Below, piece by piece: positions 43,916 through 53,089 of a stretch of 64,000 nucleotides of DNA (the stretch's first letter is position 1; each line of letters opens with the position of its first letter). The stretch comes from an uncultured Methylophilaceae bacterium. GTDB lineage: Bacteria; Pseudomonadota; Gammaproteobacteria; Burkholderiales; Methylophilaceae. The DNA lies in contig CAIQFD010000008.1 in the NCBI GenBank assembly GCA_903870995.1, forward strand, positions 1-64,000, read 5' to 3'. Below the pieces are notes generated by a model. It worked only from the letters and a program-made list of their open reading frames with translations. It had not been told where the DNA came from and ran no database searches. The translations under genes were made by a program, and so were the position numbers.

Positions 43916-44332
43916 TTATTTCGCTTTGCTGCTTTTTGGCACTGCGATCAAACGCCCTCCCGTGAATCTGTCGTGTAAATACAAACCATCTCGGTCAAAG
44001 ATCGCCCACAAAAAACTAACGCCAAAAAACAAACTTGCGAGAATGTAACGCTGCACCGCTTGCAACGCCGTCAATCTGGAGCCGTCTTGGCTGGTTAATT
44101 GAATACGCCATGTCTGCATTGCTAATGTTTGGCCACTTTTTGCCCAACAAAATACAAAATATGCACCCGCAACCGTCCAAGAGTAGATAAAAAATGTATT
44201 ACGCTGGAGGTCTGAAATGGGGTCACCAAAGATGGCACGATAAATAATGCCAGCCACAAATAAAATAGCGAAGACCAAGATACTTTCATAGAGCACGCAA
44301 GCAATACGCTTAAATAGAGAAATTGAATGCAT
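43916..44332 (-). CDS. RDD family membrane protein
   Basis: RIACVLYESILVFAILFVAG; LYLHDRFTGGRLIAVP. Confidence 0.9.
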   Translation of the reverse strand: MHSISLFKRIACVLYESILVFAILFVAGIIYRAIFGDPISDLQRNTFFIYSWTVAGAYFVFCWAKSGQTLAMQTWRIQLTSQDGSRLTALQAVQRYILASLFFGVSFLWAIFDRDGLYLHDRFTGGRLIAVPKSSKAK

Positions 44333-44782
44333 TTAGTGCTCGAGGTCTTCCGTACCGAATATTTCAGGATGTTGCGCTCTCAATTCCAGTCTTTTTTCTG
44401 GCGAAGCTTCTCGGTACTCATGCCACTTTTTACGTAACTCTTCTTTTTTTTCCGGAGGTAACGATTTGAATTGTTGATATCGTTTACGTGCGTTTTCACG
44501 TTCAAATGGGGTCATTCGACTCCAACCAGATAACCGATTTTGAACACGGCTTTGATGTTCAAGCGTCATTTTTGGATAATCGCGTGCAATCTCAAGCATA
44601 CGCTCACGTTGCCACGGCCTCAAACTATCCCACTCATCTGACAATGGCGCCAACACTTGTCTTTGCTGATCATTGAGAGAAGACCAAGCCTTGTCTGCGC
44701 CATCTTCAGCGTTCACCAAATGCGCAAAGAAAGCAAGCGCACAGCAAACAATGATTATTGCTGTGTGTTTTCTGACAACCAT
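44333..44782 (-). CDS. DUF3106 domain protein
   Basis: LNDQQRQVLAPLSDEWDSLRPWQRERML...FKSLPPEKKEELRKKW. Confidence 0.85.
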   Translation of the reverse strand: MVVRKHTAIIIVCCALAFFAHLVNAEDGADKAWSSLNDQQRQVLAPLSDEWDSLRPWQRERMLEIARDYPKMTLEHQSRVQNRLSGWSRMTPFERENARKRYQQFKSLPPEKKEELRKKWHEYREASPEKRLELRAQHPEIFGTEDLEH

Positions 44783-45165
44783 ATACCAAAACCCTCGTTC
44801 AAATAAGCTTCAGGAGGCAAGTCTGAAGCCAATAAATAAGCATCCCCTTGCTCGGAAATATCTTGATTAACAATATTTTGCATTGTGAATAACGCAACAA
44901 GACCTAAGCCACACATCAGTAACATCACCAAAAGACGATGCTGATGCCAATAATCACCGAACAGTTGTATCACGCCATTTTGGCTGATTGCCATTGCTGA
45001 GGAAGGCCTAGCCATATTGGCTAGCGCTTGTTGACGTGCATAGCTCAACTGCGAGTCTACCTTTGCATCGACATTTGAAGCGCGCTCATCCAAAAGCAAA
45101 GCAATACGCTTAGCGATTTCTTGACCTCGCAACACATTTTCTTGATTTTCAATTTCACTCTTCAT
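44755..45165 (-). CDS. DUF3619 family protein (putative anti-sigma factor)
   Basis: One central TM segment; overlaps sigma factor gene. Confidence 0.7.
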   Translation of the reverse strand: MKSEIENQENVLRGQEIAKRIALLLDERASNVDAKVDSQLSYARQQALANMARPSSAMAISQNGVIQLFGDYWHQHRLLVMLLMCGLGLVALFTMQNIVNQDISEQGDAYLLASDLPPEAYLNEGFGIWLSENTQQ

Positions 45166-45772
45166 TCTCTACTCCTTTCTTGGACGACAAAGGCCTAGCC
45201 AACAGATGTTCAGCCAACCCATGCTCCTCTAAAGTCGCCGCCATTGCGCGTACTGCACGTGAGCAATGCGTTTTCACGCTGCCTTGTGAACAACCCATAG
45301 CCGCAGCAGTGTCAGCAACGTCCATATCCTCCCAGTAACGCATTACAAAGGCTTCTCGTTGACGTGTTGGAAGCTTCGTCAACGCATCCTCAATGAGCGC
45401 CAAAGTCTGACGTTGCTCCAACTGAACCTCAGGTTCGTCACGGGCATCATGATTTGATCCGGCGAGCACCTCTAAAGGATCAGAGTCCTCACCATCCTCG
45501 CCAACTACGCTAAAAGAGGATAATAAAGTCGTCCAAACATTTCGTACTTTTTGGCGACGCCAATAATCACGCATCGTGTTTTGCAAAATTCGCTGAAACA
45601 ACATAGGAAATTCACTCGATGGGCGTAAAGCATACTTCTCGGACAATTTCATCATGGCATCTTGCACAATATCCAATGCAACATGATCATCACGGACAGC
45701 ATAGGCAGTTTGCTTAAAAGCACGACGCTCCACTTGCGTGAGAAAATCCGATAGTTCTTGTCGAGTAGCCAT
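45155..45772 (-). CDS. RNA polymerase sigma-70 family (ECF-type) factor
   Basis: ALDIVQDAMMKL region 2; LPTRQREAFVMRYWEDMDVADTAAAMGCSQGSVKTHCSRAVRAM region 4. Confidence 0.92.
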   Translation of the reverse strand: MATRQELSDFLTQVERRAFKQTAYAVRDDHVALDIVQDAMMKLSEKYALRPSSEFPMLFQRILQNTMRDYWRRQKVRNVWTTLLSSFSVVGEDGEDSDPLEVLAGSNHDARDEPEVQLEQRQTLALIEDALTKLPTRQREAFVMRYWEDMDVADTAAAMGCSQGSVKTHCSRAVRAMAATLEEHGLAEHLLARPLSSKKGVENEE

Positions 45773-45909
45773 TATCTTAATGTATCGTGTTCACACAAAA
45801 AAGCAAAGCATCTTCATCAAATCTAAATTAAACATTCTCATTGGTAGCGGACCCATAATTTAGCTACAATCTACGACGGAATTATTTTCAAGATGCTATT
45901 AAAGAAACC

Positions 45910-47244
45910 ATGACCACAAAACCCACCTGTTTGATCGTTGACGACGAACCCGATTTGTCAGAGTTCATTGCCATGAATCTAGAGAAAATGGGAATTAAGA
46001 CAGATTGCTCTGAAACAGTTGCCGACGCAAAACATATGCTTGCCCACCGTCGCTACGACTTTTGTTTAACCGATATGCGCTTACCAGATGGAAATGGTTT
46101 AGATTTAGTCAAACATATTGGATTCCAACATGCAGGCCTACCAATTGCAATCATCACAGCCTTCGCCAACTCTGATAACGCTGTAGCGGCACTAAAAGCT
46201 GGGGCGTTTGATTACTTAAGTAAACCAATCGCATTGCCACAACTACAAGCTTTAGCAAAAGCAGCGATTAAGTTTGGGCAAAGTCACGAGCAAAAAAATG
46301 TTCAAGTATCTTTGTTAGGCAATTCAAAGCGGATGAATGATATCCGCCAACAGCTTGAAAAAATTTCTCGTAATCAATCTCCATTATTAATTACAGGCGA
46401 ATTAGGCACAGGTAAAGAGTCAGCCGCAAGACTCATCCACCTGAACAGTTCAAGACACGAGCATCCATTTATCAAAGTAAATTGTGCAGTACTTAATCCA
46501 GAAAGTGCAGAAAAAGCATTTTTCGGACAAGCTCAACATTCCGAGCTCCCAAAAGAAAAAGAAGGGTTTCTTCAAGCCGCCAAGGAAGGGACGCTTTTTT
46601 TAGACAATGTTGAAAAACTGCCAGTCCGAATTCAAAACCAACTGCTCGATCTGATGCAGGAGAACAGCTTTAATTCCTGCTTAATCGGAGCAACGCACCA
46701 AGACCTAAGCCTCTTAATGGAGCAAGGATTATTCAACAAAGACTTTTATTACCAGCTAAATGTAATGAGCTTACAGATGCCGACACTGCGTGAAATACCA
46801 GAGGATATTCCTGTGATTGCGCAGCACTTGTTAAGACAAATAGCAGGCACTTATGGCAACGAGAATGCAACACTGTCCGAATGTGCATTATCCAAATTAA
46901 AAACCAGCCAATTTTTGGGAAATGTACGTGAGTTAAGAAACACGCTAGAGCGTGCGATTACTTTATGCGAGGGCAGTATTATTAGAGCGGAAGACTTGCT
47001 GGTCAAAGAAAAGATAGCGCTACCAGACCAATTAAAGTTAGATATTTCGAAATTACCACTGCCAGATTATTTGGAAAAAATTGAGAAGCAAGCCATTCTA
47101 GAAGCACTCACAAAAACACGCCAAAACAAAACAGCTGCTGCTAAATTGTTAGGCGTGAGTTTTAGAACGCTACGCTACCGTCTTGCTAAACTAGGGATGA
47201 GTAAAGAAAATACATCATTCCCTATCGAAGACGAATTAACTTAA
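45910..47244 (+). CDS. NtrC/PilR-family response regulator with degenerate AAA+ domain
   Basis: Intact receiver (VDDEPD, LTDMRLPDGNG, LSKPI) and Fis HTH; AAA+ domain with altered motifs (see findings). Confidence 0.9.
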   Translation: MTTKPTCLIVDDEPDLSEFIAMNLEKMGIKTDCSETVADAKHMLAHRRYDFCLTDMRLPDGNGLDLVKHIGFQHAGLPIAIITAFANSDNAVAALKAGAFDYLSKPIALPQLQALAKAAIKFGQSHEQKNVQVSLLGNSKRMNDIRQQLEKISRNQSPLLITGELGTGKESAARLIHLNSSRHEHPFIKVNCAVLNPESAEKAFFGQAQHSELPKEKEGFLQAAKEGTLFLDNVEKLPVRIQNQLLDLMQENSFNSCLIGATHQDLSLLMEQGLFNKDFYYQLNVMSLQMPTLREIPEDIPVIAQHLLRQIAGTYGNENATLSECALSKLKTSQFLGNVRELRNTLERAITLCEGSIIRAEDLLVKEKIALPDQLKLDISKLPLPDYLEKIEKQAILEALTKTRQNKTAAAKLLGVSFRTLRYRLAKLGMSKENTSFPIEDELT

Positions 47245-48237
47245 TGCCAACACTAAATAGGCGATGTACATTAAACCGTTTACCCAAACATGCCAAACTC
47301 GTAGCTGTCCGCGAGAGATCATCCAGCGTAACCAAAGCACACCGAGCAAAGTAACTACCACACCAGCAAACACTTCCTTTTGAGGAACCCAAGGAGTCAA
47401 CATAATGCCAATCGCTGGCAACAGAGTCCCTTGAAATACCAAAGCGCCCGTAATATTACCGAAAGCCAATGTGTCTTTCCCTTTGCGCACCCACAAAATA
47501 CTATTCACCTTTTCAGGCAACTCTGTCGCAATTGGAATCACCAATAAAGAAAGTAACAAAGGCGTAATCCCTAGCAACTCAGATGCACCCTCAATACCAG
47601 AAATAAAGCCTTTAGCCCCAGAGATCAACAAACCCAAGCCCATTAACAATTGCAGCATGACTACACCCATATGATTAGGGAGACCTAGTCGACATAAGAA
47701 CATTGGGTTTTCTGCCTCAGTCGCGTGGCCATCTGCAACAAGATTTTTAGAGGCGCGCAAAGTCAGCATGATGTAAATAAAGTAAATCATGACCATCACA
47801 AAACCTATGCCGTATCGCACAGCTTTAATTTCATGCGGCACAAACAGCGCTAGTGTTGCAAAACCAAAAGCCACGAGAAAGAAATTTAAATCACGCTTAA
47901 GACCAGTTTTCTCAGGATGAAAATGTCCAGTCGCTTTTCTGTTTTTCAATACAGCAAATGCCAAAAGTGAAATAGACAATGTTGAAAGCATTAGTGGCGC
48001 ACCCAGAATTGCACCAACACCAATCTCTTCGTTAACATGGGCATCACTGGTACCCGCCATCAAGGCTAAAAGTGGAACTGATGTTTCTGGCAACGCGGTT
48101 CCAACAGCAGCAAATAATGATCCCGTTACCCCTTCTGAAATGCCTAGTTTTTCACCTAAGTGCTCAAGTGCATTGGTAAAGACTTCGGCAGCAATTAGAA
48201 TAACGATTAAGAATAAGAGTAATTCAGCGAAAATCAT
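47236..48237 (-). CDS. Sodium/calcium exchanger-like cation antiporter
   Basis: FTNALEHLGEKLGISEGVTGSLFAAVGTALPETSVPLLA; second repeat PLLLSLLVIPIATELPEKVNSI. Confidence 0.85.
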   Translation of the reverse strand: MIFAELLLFLIVILIAAEVFTNALEHLGEKLGISEGVTGSLFAAVGTALPETSVPLLALMAGTSDAHVNEEIGVGAILGAPLMLSTLSISLLAFAVLKNRKATGHFHPEKTGLKRDLNFFLVAFGFATLALFVPHEIKAVRYGIGFVMVMIYFIYIMLTLRASKNLVADGHATEAENPMFLCRLGLPNHMGVVMLQLLMGLGLLISGAKGFISGIEGASELLGITPLLLSLLVIPIATELPEKVNSILWVRKGKDTLAFGNITGALVFQGTLLPAIGIMLTPWVPQKEVFAGVVVTLLGVLWLRWMISRGQLRVWHVWVNGLMYIAYLVLALS

Positions 48238-48291: not shown

Positions 48292-48828
48292 ATGCAAAAT
48301 CTTCAAATCAATCAGAATGGCCTTTGTGTTCAAGCGACGTTTATCGCATCACCGAACGTAGATCCACGACCATCCACTGAGGATATTTCACTTATTGTGA
48401 TCCACAATATTAGCCTCCCGCCCAATCAGTTCGGGGGCAATGGTGTAATGGAACTATTCACCAACCAACTTAATCCGAATGCACATCCTTATTACGCTGA
48501 AATCGCACATCTAAAAGTTTCATCGCACTTTTTTATTCGTCGGGATGGGCTGTTATTACAATTTGCATCCTGTAATGACAGGGCTTGGCACGCAGGCGTT
48601 TCAACTTGGGAGGGCCGTGAGCGATGTAACGACTTCTCTATTGGCATTGAATTAGAGGGGAGTGATTTTGAAGCTTTTGAACCTCAGCAATATGAAACAC
48701 TCCAATCACTCATCAGCAGCATTAAAAGTCACTATCCAATTAGAGAAATCGTAGGCCATTCGGAAATTGCACCAGGAAGAAAAACAGACCCTGGCCCCTA
48801 TTTTGATTGGTCTTGCATCAAGACTTAA
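48292..48828 (+). CDS. ampD: 1,6-anhydro-N-acetylmuramyl-L-alanine amidase AmpD
   Basis: LIVIHNISLPPNQFGG; SSHFFIRRDG; WHAGVSTWEGRERCNDFSIGIELEG; GRKTDPGPYFDW. Confidence 0.95.
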   Translation: MQNLQINQNGLCVQATFIASPNVDPRPSTEDISLIVIHNISLPPNQFGGNGVMELFTNQLNPNAHPYYAEIAHLKVSSHFFIRRDGLLLQFASCNDRAWHAGVSTWEGRERCNDFSIGIELEGSDFEAFEPQQYETLQSLISSIKSHYPIREIVGHSEIAPGRKTDPGPYFDWSCIKT

Positions 48829-48888: not shown

Positions 48889-50013
48889 ATGTTATCTAAG
48901 CAATATTATTCAACAAGTAGAAAATCAACACTGCTTCTGATTGCCATTACTTTATCGATGAGTTTTGCGTTGATTGCTTGTGGCAAAAAAGAAACTGACC
49001 AAGAGACTAAAAAGAAATCCCAAACCGCCCTGATTAGTACAACGACCGCTGAATCCAGGTCATTGGAAATTCGAGAAGAATCCATTGGCACGCTAGAAGG
49101 GTTGATTGACCCAACAGTGGCTGCTGAAGCAGCAGGGCGGGTCACTAAAGTCTTTGCACATCCTGGGCAAGCCGTAAAAAAAGGGGAAACCTTAGTATTA
49201 ATTGATGCAACTGATTACAACCTGCAACGCGTCCAAACCCAAGCCGAGGTCGCCAGATTAGAAGCGCTCACTATCAATCAAAGCCGCATTGTTGATAGAA
49301 ATCAAGTATTAGTCCAAAAGAAATTCATATCGCAAAATGCGTTAGACGATGTGACCACACAACATGCAGCGCTACAACAAGAACTTGATGGCGCAAAGGC
49401 ACAGCTCGCAATCATTGACCATACTCGAACCAAAACAACGATTACTGCACCGATTGATGGCGTCGTTCAAAAACAAATTGTTTCCACTGGTGACTTTGTC
49501 AAAATTGGCGACCCTTTAATCCAAATCATCAGCAAACAAAAACTCCGGGCACATTTACCTTTACCAGAAAATATTGCTGCAAAAATTCATGCGGGAATCA
49601 AAGTACGTTTGAGCACCCCAACATCGACGAATGAAGTCATCAGCACCATCCATGAACTAAAACCACTCATTAGTGAAACCAGCCGTGCCGTTGATGTGAT
49701 TGCTGATGTCAACGACCAGTCAGGTTGGCAACCTGGCGCTAGCGTTAAAGGAGAAATCATTTTAGGTGAACATGCTAATGCAGTTCTAGTACCTGAGCAG
49801 TGCATCGTCCTTCGCCCAGCAGGCGAAGTGGTTTATGTTGTGCAAGATGGTGTAGCGCTTCAAAGAATCGTTAAAACAGGAATGCGCCAAGATGGGAAAA
49901 TTGAAATCACAGAAGGTTTAAGTGCCGGTGAAGTTATTGCTAAAGATGGGGCAGCCTTCCTCACAGACAAGGCTAAAGTAAAAATCGAAGCCAAAAAACA
50001 AGCTAAAGAATAA
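48889..50013 (+). CDS. RND efflux membrane fusion protein (lipoprotein)
   Basis: Lipobox LIAC; HlyD-type biotinyl-lipoyl-like halves. Confidence 0.93.
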   Translation: MLSKQYYSTSRKSTLLLIAITLSMSFALIACGKKETDQETKKKSQTALISTTTAESRSLEIREESIGTLEGLIDPTVAAEAAGRVTKVFAHPGQAVKKGETLVLIDATDYNLQRVQTQAEVARLEALTINQSRIVDRNQVLVQKKFISQNALDDVTTQHAALQQELDGAKAQLAIIDHTRTKTTITAPIDGVVQKQIVSTGDFVKIGDPLIQIISKQKLRAHLPLPENIAAKIHAGIKVRLSTPTSTNEVISTIHELKPLISETSRAVDVIADVNDQSGWQPGASVKGEIILGEHANAVLVPEQCIVLRPAGEVVYVVQDGVALQRIVKTGMRQDGKIEITEGLSAGEVIAKDGAAFLTDKAKVKIEAKKQAKE

Positions 50014-50026
50014 AAGAGAAAATTGC

Positions 50027-53000
50027 ATGAACTTGCCTCAGCTTTCCATTAAGCGCCATGTCTTTGCATGGATGCTGTCTGCCGTCATCGTATTATTTGG
50101 TGTTATTTCTTACCAGCGCATTGGGATCGACCGCATTCCATCGATTGATTTTCCTATCATCATGGTCAACACCACGCTTAAAGGTGCAAATCCCGATGTA
50201 ATGGACTCGAGCATTACTAGCGTCATTGAAGCAGCGATCAATACAACACCTGGCATTGAGCATATTCAGTCATCATCATCCCCTGGCGTTTCAACGATTA
50301 CAATTACTTTTGCGCTCAATAAAAATATTGATGTTGCTTATAACGAAGTGCAATCAAAAGTCAGCCAAGTATTAAAAAAACTACCCAACGACACTGACCC
50401 ACCAACAATTCAAAAAGTAGACTCAAATGCACAGGCTGTTATCTGGCTTGCCTTAACGGGCGATCGTACCATCCAGCAACTGAACCTTTATGCGCTCAAT
50501 GTGCTAAAAAAGAAATTTGAAACGATCAACGGCGTCGGTGAAGTCACCCTAGGTGGCCGTCGTGACCGAGTAATTCGGGTTAGCCTCTCACCAGAACGGA
50601 TGGCAGCTTATAAACTCACGGCTAGCGATTTAATCAACGCGCTCAAGCGTGAACATGTTCAGCTCCCAGGCGGATTTTTAGTCAGCGCCCAAACCGAGAA
50701 ATTGGTAAAACTCGATTTAGAATTTCATAACATAAAAGATTTGGGTGAACTCATCATTAATCATAAAGATGGCGCCCCTGTTCGTCTTCAAGACATCGCA
50801 ACCATTACCGACAGCATTACTGACAATCGACAAGTAGCTCGCTACAACGGCAATCCAACCGTTGGCTTAGGCATGGTCAAGATTGCTAACGCCAATACCG
50901 TAGAGATTATCAAAGAGGTTGAGCGTCGATTGGATGAGGATATACGGCCAAACTTACCACCTGGGATGAAACTAGAAATCTCCACTAATGATTCGATTTT
51001 TATTAATCAAATGGTGGCGTCGCTAAAAGAGCATTTATTCACAGGCACTCTGCTTGCAGCGCTGATTGTATTTATTTTCTTGCGCTCCATGCGTTCAACC
51101 TTAATCATTGCGACAGCTATTCCCGTTTCATTATTGGGTGCTATTGCGGTGATGTACTTCTCTGGTTATACCTTCAACTCAATGACTTTGCTTGGCTTGC
51201 TTCTGCTCATTGGTGTGGTTGTGGATGATGCCATCGTCGTGCTAGAAAATATTTTCCGCCACCGAGAAAATATTGATAAAGACCCGATCAGCGCAGCGAT
51301 TAATGGATCCAGTGAAGTCACTTTTGCAGTGATTGCAGCATCACTCTCATTGATTTGTATTTTTGCGCCAGTGATTTTTATGGATGGCATTGTCGGCATG
51401 TTCTTCAAGTCATTTGGCGTAGTTGTGACCTTTGGCGTACTTGCCTCGTTATTCGTTTCTCTCACGCTAACGCCTATGCTTTGCTCGCGCTACTTGAGCG
51501 TTGGCCACAAAGAAAATAAATTCTATAGCGCAATTGAAAGAAATCTTGCCAAAATCGATAGTGCTTATGACTACTTACTCAACTTAAGCCTCAATCATCG
51601 CTGGCGCGTGCTGATTATCACCATACTATTTGTGATTCTAGGTGGCGGCTATGCCATGAAAAATGTACAAAAGGACTTTGTACCAGAAGCAGATGAAGGA
51701 AGCTTTACCATCAGCGTTAAAACCCCACTTGGCTCAAGTCTAGAATATACAAACTCACGTTTAAAATTAGTTGAAGCGGCGATCGCCTCACACCCGAAAG
51801 AAGTCGCCAGCTACTTTTCAACGATTGGTGCAGGCTCACGCGGTCAAGTGAACCAAGGTAATATCAACGTACGCTTAGTTTCTAAAACTGAGCGCGCACT
51901 AAGCCAAAAAGCACTCATCAAAACGCTTAAAAAACAGTTCGACCAAATCCCTGGTGTAAAGGCAATCCCATCTCCTGCATCGATTGCAAAAGGTCAGCGC
52001 TCAGAAAAACTGCAGTTCATTATCACCGGTCCGAGTCTTGAAGAAATTGGCAGTCTTTCTAAAAAAATACAGCAAACATTGTCTAAAAATACTGAAATGG
52101 GCAAGGTGGACTTAGATGTTCAGCTAGACCTGCCTCAACTAGAAATGAATATTGACCGAAGCCGCGCATCGGCATTGGGACTGAGCGCGAACGACATCGC
52201 AGGCGCTGTGAGCTTATATGCAGGCGGTCTTAATGTTGCCACATTTAACGATAGTGACGGTGATGGCCAACGTTATGACATTCGTATAAAAGCAAACGAA
52301 GATGAATTCAAGCAAACAACAGATCTCAGCAAAATCTACTTAAGAAGCGCCAGTGGCGAATTGGTACGTCTTGATACAGTTGCTAGCTTCAAACCATCAC
52401 TAGGCGCTGCTGTAATTGGCCGCTACGATATGCAATACTCTGCCAACTTTTATGCCAATCCAAGCATGCCGTTAGGAGACGCCGTTACGTTGGTAAAAGA
52501 GACTGCTACCAAAACATTGCCGACAAATTACACACTCAAAATGTCGGGCCAAGCAGAAGAGTTTGGGAAAACATTTAAGAATATTAAGTTTGTGTTTATT
52601 CTCGCCTTCATCTTGCTTTACATGGTGCTGGCAAGCCAATTCAATTCTTTTGTACAGCCTGTCATCATTATGTTGGCACAGCCGCTTGCAATTATCGGTG
52701 GCTTAATTGCACTTCTGCTTTCAGGCGATTCGTTGAACATTTACTCGATGATTGGATTGGTGCTGCTGATTGGATTGGTCGCAAAAAATTCTATCTTGCT
52801 AGTGGATTTAACGAATCAGCTACGTGAACGTGGTGCAAGCATCAACGATGCACTTAAAGAAGCTTGTCCGATTCGTTTACGTCCAGTGGTAATGACCTCG
52901 CTCACCATCATCTTGGCGCTTCTGCCTGCCGCTTTGGGTTTAGGTGCTGGCAGCGAGACCAACAAGCCTCTTTCCGTCGCCATTATTGGCGGGATGATTT

Positions 53001-53089
53001 CATCAACCTTGCTGACGTTGGTAGTCGTACCAGCTGCCTACTCTTTGGTGATGAATGGTCTAGAAAAGTGGAAAGCAAGAAAGCATTAG
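50027..53089 (+). CDS. RND (HAE1/AcrB-type) efflux transporter
   Basis: 1020 aa; GVVVDDAIVVLENI; two TM blocks. Confidence 0.96.
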   Translation: MNLPQLSIKRHVFAWMLSAVIVLFGVISYQRIGIDRIPSIDFPIIMVNTTLKGANPDVMDSSITSVIEAAINTTPGIEHIQSSSSPGVSTITITFALNKNIDVAYNEVQSKVSQVLKKLPNDTDPPTIQKVDSNAQAVIWLALTGDRTIQQLNLYALNVLKKKFETINGVGEVTLGGRRDRVIRVSLSPERMAAYKLTASDLINALKREHVQLPGGFLVSAQTEKLVKLDLEFHNIKDLGELIINHKDGAPVRLQDIATITDSITDNRQVARYNGNPTVGLGMVKIANANTVEIIKEVERRLDEDIRPNLPPGMKLEISTNDSIFINQMVASLKEHLFTGTLLAALIVFIFLRSMRSTLIIATAIPVSLLGAIAVMYFSGYTFNSMTLLGLLLLIGVVVDDAIVVLENIFRHRENIDKDPISAAINGSSEVTFAVIAASLSLICIFAPVIFMDGIVGMFFKSFGVVVTFGVLASLFVSLTLTPMLCSRYLSVGHKENKFYSAIERNLAKIDSAYDYLLNLSLNHRWRVLIITILFVILGGGYAMKNVQKDFVPEADEGSFTISVKTPLGSSLEYTNSRLKLVEAAIASHPKEVASYFSTIGAGSRGQVNQGNINVRLVSKTERALSQKALIKTLKKQFDQIPGVKAIPSPASIAKGQRSEKLQFIITGPSLEEIGSLSKKIQQTLSKNTEMGKVDLDVQLDLPQLEMNIDRSRASALGLSANDIAGAVSLYAGGLNVATFNDSDGDGQRYDIRIKANEDEFKQTTDLSKIYLRSASGELVRLDTVASFKPSLGAAVIGRYDMQYSANFYANPSMPLGDAVTLVKETATKTLPTNYTLKMSGQAEEFGKTFKNIKFVFILAFILLYMVLASQFNSFVQPVIIMLAQPLAIIGGLIALLLSGDSLNIYSMIGLVLLIGLVAKNSILLVDLTNQLRERGASINDALKEACPIRLRPVVMTSLTIILALLPAALGLGAGSETNKPLSVAIIGGMISSTLLTLVVVPAAYSLVMNGLEKWKARKH

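Follow-up and report, generated by a model that had tools for sequence, protein, structure and literature searches.

Among the closest described systems is PilSR of P. aeruginosa and Kingella (Npa/Nps in commensal Neisseria), whose PilR resembles the regulator studied here in architecture, in its HTH and, we predict, in its target pilA; relatives of our organism carry a pilS-pilR locus with ampD nearby. The system described below differs from PilSR in that its PilR is without GAFTGA, the Walker B Glu and the arginine fingers, and in that PilS and the -24/-12 box of pilA are missing. NtrC-family proteins that have no GAFTGA and act at sigma70 promoters are documented (PMC10274813). Rhodobacter capsulatus NtrC, Caulobacter NtrC and V. 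cholerae VpsR (spelled VspR in PMC10274813) act at sigma70-type promoters, and our PilR is like them in having lost GAFTGA while keeping receiver and HTH; they belong, however, to other subfamilies with other targets, and Caulobacter NtrC still needs Walker A and Walker B. NtrX, found in Brucella and other proteobacteria, provides the nearest solved full-length fold, but it forms a separate subfamily and keeps its dedicated kinase NtrY, whereas our PilR has no PilS. On the promoter side, the major pilin gene of pathogenic Neisseria (pilE) shifted in some lineages from sigma54 to sigma70 control (PMC6755734, PMC6528607). In that case it was rpoN that decayed, and pilE still carries a -12/-24 sequence that is not used; our organism has both rpoN and NtrC intact and lost the PilR motor together with the pilA box instead. 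A search of open-access literature, which leaves out most subscription journals, found no report of a PilR with GAFTGA loss or sigma54 independence. The kind of change has precedents (R. capsulatus and Caulobacter NtrC, NtrX, VpsR); for PilR it is, as far as we found, new.

The window analysed here is a stretch of 64,000 nucleotides from an uncultured Methylophilaceae bacterium, a freshwater methylotroph, whose draft genome (G000) has 1.7 Mb in 62 contigs and is 93% complete. Judged from sequence comparison, the window PilR is probably a sigma54-independent regulator of pilA that sets transcription without ATP hydrolysis. Our best reading is further that it has become an orphan, without PilS, in a genus that is streamlining its genome, and that it is near loss, with broken frames in two of three sister copies. 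The features of the locus are as follows.

45155..45772, minus strand: gene for a sigma-70 family factor (PRK09047 equivalog), bordering the ancestral pilSR locus on the left (Pfam/NCBIfam, synteny)
45773..45909, no strand: intergenic stretch at the position of pilS in other genera (synteny; no PilS in genome)
45910..47244, plus strand: pilR ortholog with degenerate AAA+ domain, 444 aa (ORF, Pfam, PilR tree)
45922..46260, plus strand: receiver domain, aa 5-117 (Pfam, alignment)
46396..46422, plus strand: Walker A GELGTGKES, retained (ortholog alignment)
46528..46563, plus strand: site of the lost GAFTGA (L1) loop, aa 207-218 (alignment; AF2 pLDDT <50 at 209-214)
46588..46611, plus strand: Walker B GTLFLDNV, Glu to Asn (alignment)
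46657..46662, plus strand: position in the pre-sensor I segment at which 11 residues present in orthologs are missing (alignment)
46732..46764, plus strand: arginine-finger region FNKDFYYQLNV, both Arg changed (R to N, R to Q) (alignment)
47071..47199, plus strand: Fis-type HTH, aa 388-430, 74-88% identity to PilR of other genera (Pfam, alignment)
47236..48237, minus strand: Na/Ca exchanger gene (cax), right flank (Pfam, synteny)
48292..48828, plus strand: ampD-like amidase, right flank (Pfam, synteny)

The 444-aa frame has zero internal stops. Pfam finds Response_reg (8-115), Sigma54_activat (135-288), AAA_lid_14 (294-363) and HTH_8 (388-428) in the protein, and an NCBIfam scan gave no equivalog above cut-off. 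The receiver keeps the phospho-acceptor Asp55 (46072-46074), the acidic pair, Thr83 and Lys105. The initial annotation had described a retained Walker A and a motor otherwise dismantled, and the ortholog alignment agrees on every point: of the sigma54-activator (bEBP) features Walker A is present, and GAFTGA, the Walker B Glu and both arginine fingers are absent. The GAFTGA segment reads AFFGQAQHSELPKEKEG in the window PilR and EFFGYKKGAFTGA in orthologs, Walker B reads GTLFLDNV instead of GTLFLDEV, and the arginine-finger stretch reads LFNKDFYYQLNV instead of FRQDLYYRLNV. The missing residues are not supplied elsewhere in the protein. The damage had in fact been understated, since a gap of 11 residues after Walker B was overlooked (LLDLMQ-----------ENSFN vs LLRAIQEKKVRMVGGTQEESVD in orthologs). 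The AlphaFold2 model (25 sequences; mean pLDDT 84.8, pTM 0.55) consists of three confident domains, with the former L1 region below 50 pLDDT, and its nearest solved full-length fold is Brucella NtrX (5m7n/5m7o/5m7p).

The window gene falls with Methylophilaceae PilR in a tree built with the trait columns removed, and it shares with PilR orthologs the receiver, AAA+ and Fis HTH architecture and the conserved locus. In relatives the genes run sigma factor, pilS-pilR, Na-Ca exchanger (cax) and ampD; the window genus has these flanks around pilR, and pilS is cleanly gone. pilS adjoins pilR in every ortholog outside the window genus for which the upstream flank was examined, and it is absent beside all four window-genus pilR copies and from their genomes. 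A PilS query against the window genome returned only matches of ∼21-29% identity in the catalytic part of other kinases, ruling out a PilS encoded elsewhere in that genome. The absence of PilS is a loss within the family and no bar to PilR orthology. The statement that no histidine kinase gene is adjacent was correct, and the term orphan holds for the window genus; it does not hold for the other genera without GAFTGA, where PilS is retained. Control by phosphorylation, which the initial annotation also claimed, may or may not apply: the receiver retains its catalytic residues, but the cognate kinase is deleted in the window genus. The window genome contains rpoN and an intact GAFTGA NtrC with NtrB; loss of rpoN is ruled out as the cause of the change.

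Other genes around pilR, and one elsewhere on the same contig, were recorded. A cluster encoding the sigma-70 family factor (PRK09047), DUF3619, DUF3106 and an RDD membrane protein occupies 43916-45772 (minus strand) of the window, and the sigma factor and DUF3619 genes adjoin pilSR in other genera as well. RND efflux adaptor and pump-like genes, assigned by eye only, follow ampD on the same strand (48889-53089). Another NtrC-family regulator, its AAA+ domain reduced still further, lies at L080:11964-13235 (minus strand; G000 contig C8, ∼96-97 kb); its best model is NtrX, and it adjoins a kinase frame of 730 aa. The window genome thus encodes, besides one intact NtrC, two regulators of the NtrC family that are without a motor.

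Sigma54 activation might persist in an unorthodox way, for example with PilR as a subunit of mixed hexamers with NtrC; the presence of rpoN and NtrC and the retained Walker A speak for this. We regard this as highly improbable: GAFTGA, the Walker B Glu, both arginine fingers and the pre-sensor I segment are all gone, and the window-genome pilA has no -24/-12 box within 400 bp.

Domain identities differ between intact and damaged copies. When intact PilR is compared across genera, identity is 83-88% in the AAA+ domain and lower, 67-81%, in the receiver. Between damaged and intact PilR this ranking is reversed, with 58-60% for AAA+, 75-80% for the receiver and 86-95% for the HTH; for the window PilR the values are 42-45%, 57-62% and 74-88%, respectively. 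Compared with the other window-genus copies, the window PilR has 81-84% identity in the receiver, 88-91% in the HTH where readable and 58-60% in AAA+. These identities indicate that constraint has been released from the AAA+ motor and not from the signal-input or DNA-binding end. In every domain for which dN/dS could be measured, it lies far below 1 (0.03-0.17 where computable; dS is near saturation within the window genus and the values there are indicative only).

Decay is nevertheless a serious rival, because the frame is broken in two of the three sister copies, a point that the initial annotation did not notice. According to this explanation, PilS was lost during genome streamlining and PilR is now functionless and awaits deletion. 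pilR is missing in six of the ten genomes of the window genus, some of them incomplete; sister G001 carries an in-frame TAG in the receiver, and in sister G002 the frame shifts after residue 360, beyond which the HTH can still be read in a different frame. The stem branch of the genus is long (1.25 changes per column in the PilR tree), and loss of motility and of two-component systems is known from pelagic Methylophilaceae (PMC6794327). Sister G005, assembled as one contig of 1,754,988 bp, and G001 keep pilR (L009 and L010, respectively) in genomes where no pilA or true pilB was found. The stop, the frameshift, the six genomes without pilR and the two without pilA/pilB count against our best reading, though single frame breaks could be explained by draft assemblies. 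The window copy itself, against the two broken sister copies, has an intact frame and domain-specific constraint; neutral decay does not give the pattern of identities seen within the genus, and the low dN/dS values, near saturation of dS as they are, also speak against it. Weighing the sister frame breaks, the missing copies and the absence of pilA/pilB from G005 and G001 against a window genome that keeps the type IV pilus genes pilA, pilB and pilC, we consider a relic unlikely, though far from negligible.

The distribution of GAFTGA loss across the family bears on the same question. The motif is absent from all four window-genus (g1) copies, from g5, g2 and g17 and from three g18 species, which together form one clade (SH-aLRT 94), and from four of the six species of g15; all other in-family PilR orthologs read have an intact loop (GAFTGA or GSFTGA). 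Sequencing error, or damage restricted to one strain, is ruled out, the losses being common to the genus and to other genera; pseudogenisation in this strain only, which the initial annotation had raised as an objection to its own view, was not borne out. All lineages without GAFTGA retain PilS except the window genus, and among the genera read, loss of the arginine fingers and of PilS is confined to that genus. That genera with PilS share the change had escaped the initial annotation. In g18 the loop is deleted, Walker B reads FFKE and PilS is next door; the receiver, the AAA+ domain and the HTH all have dN/dS (NG86) of 0-0.06, and this GAFTGA-less PilR is under strong purifying selection, against what a relic would predict. 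Because GAFTGA is also missing in other genera, loss of the sigma54 contact must predate the window genus, and it is compatible with retained function.

Next, the upstream regions of pilA were compared in 48 genomes, 36 with intact PilR and 12 with a damaged loop. The -24/-12 consensus was scored over 250-400 bp upstream of pilA, and a score of at least 10/12 was taken as a box. A box was present at one or more pilA copies in all 36 genomes with intact PilR. Among those with a damaged loop it was found in two (G023 and G209) and in none of the other ten; in the window genome the best score within 400 bp, with GG and GC demanded, was 6/12. Fisher's exact test of box against loop gave p = 1e-8, and the tree allows just two or three independent losses; a formal test of phylogenetic independence has too few pairs for significance. 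The correlation is therefore a strong pattern that is unproven against phylogeny, and the small number of losses counts against our best reading. So do G023 (L163) and G209 (L165, L166), where the PilR loop reads GAIANA/GAVANA and pilA keeps a good -24/-12 box; they possibly represent an intermediate stage, or a second activator. A scan with the sigma70 consensus upstream of pilA found no promoter above shuffled sequence, which also counts against that reading.

The enriched-word search upstream of pilA yielded a palindrome, TGACA-N5-TGTCA, with an A/T-rich spacer. It is present at 9 or more of 10 positions in all 12 genomes with damaged PilR (10 exact; G000 and G002 at 9/10) and at 9-10 positions in 32 of the 36 with intact PilR. 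From its position and co-conservation, we infer that this palindrome is the PilR operator; that the assignment goes by association counts against our best reading. The TGTC half-sites are similar to the GTCT/TGT elements given for PilR sites of P. aeruginosa (PMC6058289). No exact copy occurs in the window genome. With one mismatch allowed there are only two sites, one inside a coding gene and the other, CTGACGAAAATTGTCA, upstream of pilA; the mismatch in the window-genus operator is a further point against our best reading. Between G000 and G002 the operator stands out as a conserved block within a diverged upstream region. Second pilA copies, in tandem or nearby, were seen at L126 (G002), L127 (G204), L144 (G013), L161 (G190) and L188 (G194), and have neither palindrome nor -24/-12 box. 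Two genomes with intact PilR and PilS, G011 (L014) and G033 (L015), have no detectable pilA, and G011 has no pilB above cut-off.

A regulator that is independent of sigma54 might instead serve mainly targets other than pilA, or act as an unphosphorylated repressor or competitor at shared NtrC-family sites. P. aeruginosa PilR affects other genes (PMC6058289), and G005 and G001 retain pilR without pilA. In these two genomes, however, no palindrome precedes a common gene, the single shared match lying in coding sequence, and the pilA site is the sole intergenic near-copy in the window genome. We judge this alternative improbable.

The preferred reading remains sigma54-independent control of pilA by PilR. 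The GAFTGA loop, the pilA -24/-12 box and the strong AAA+ constraint were lost in the same clades, while HTH, receiver and palindrome were kept. The view of the initial annotation that the protein is a sigma54-independent DNA-binding regulator is well supported, and more firmly than that annotation could know, by the vanished -24/-12 box and by the retained HTH and putative operator. In the mechanism we propose, PilR is the response regulator for pilA, a type IV pilus gene, and would have stopped being an ATP-driven sigma54 activator. A PilR dimer would bind the putative operator upstream of pilA, and pilA would be transcribed by a sigma70-type RNA polymerase, with PilR acting by direct contact or as a repressor. 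The retained Walker A may serve nucleotide binding, by analogy with R. capsulatus NtrC. Without PilS, PilR would be constitutive, or would be phosphorylated by another kinase or a small-molecule phosphodonor.

For the family, there is about an even chance that the whole Methylophilaceae clade moved PilSR-pilA from sigma54 to sigma70 control in a staged series, in which the operator, the HTH and, outside the window genus, the kinase were kept and rpoN is still used elsewhere. The stages, to which the same even chance applies jointly, would run from the intact system to a damaged loop with the box kept (G023, G209), then to loss of loop and box with PilS kept, and finally to loss of PilS. GAFTGA-less sigma54 activators are known singly, and the rewiring of a sigma54 circuit with its target kept is poorly documented. 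The order of events and the mode of the stripped regulator are directly testable because regulator, kinase, operator and promoter can be read across 48 related genomes, which include apparent intermediates. The data suggest a rewired genetic switch caught in mid-change; if true, the series would show how an ATP-driven switch becomes an ordinary one.
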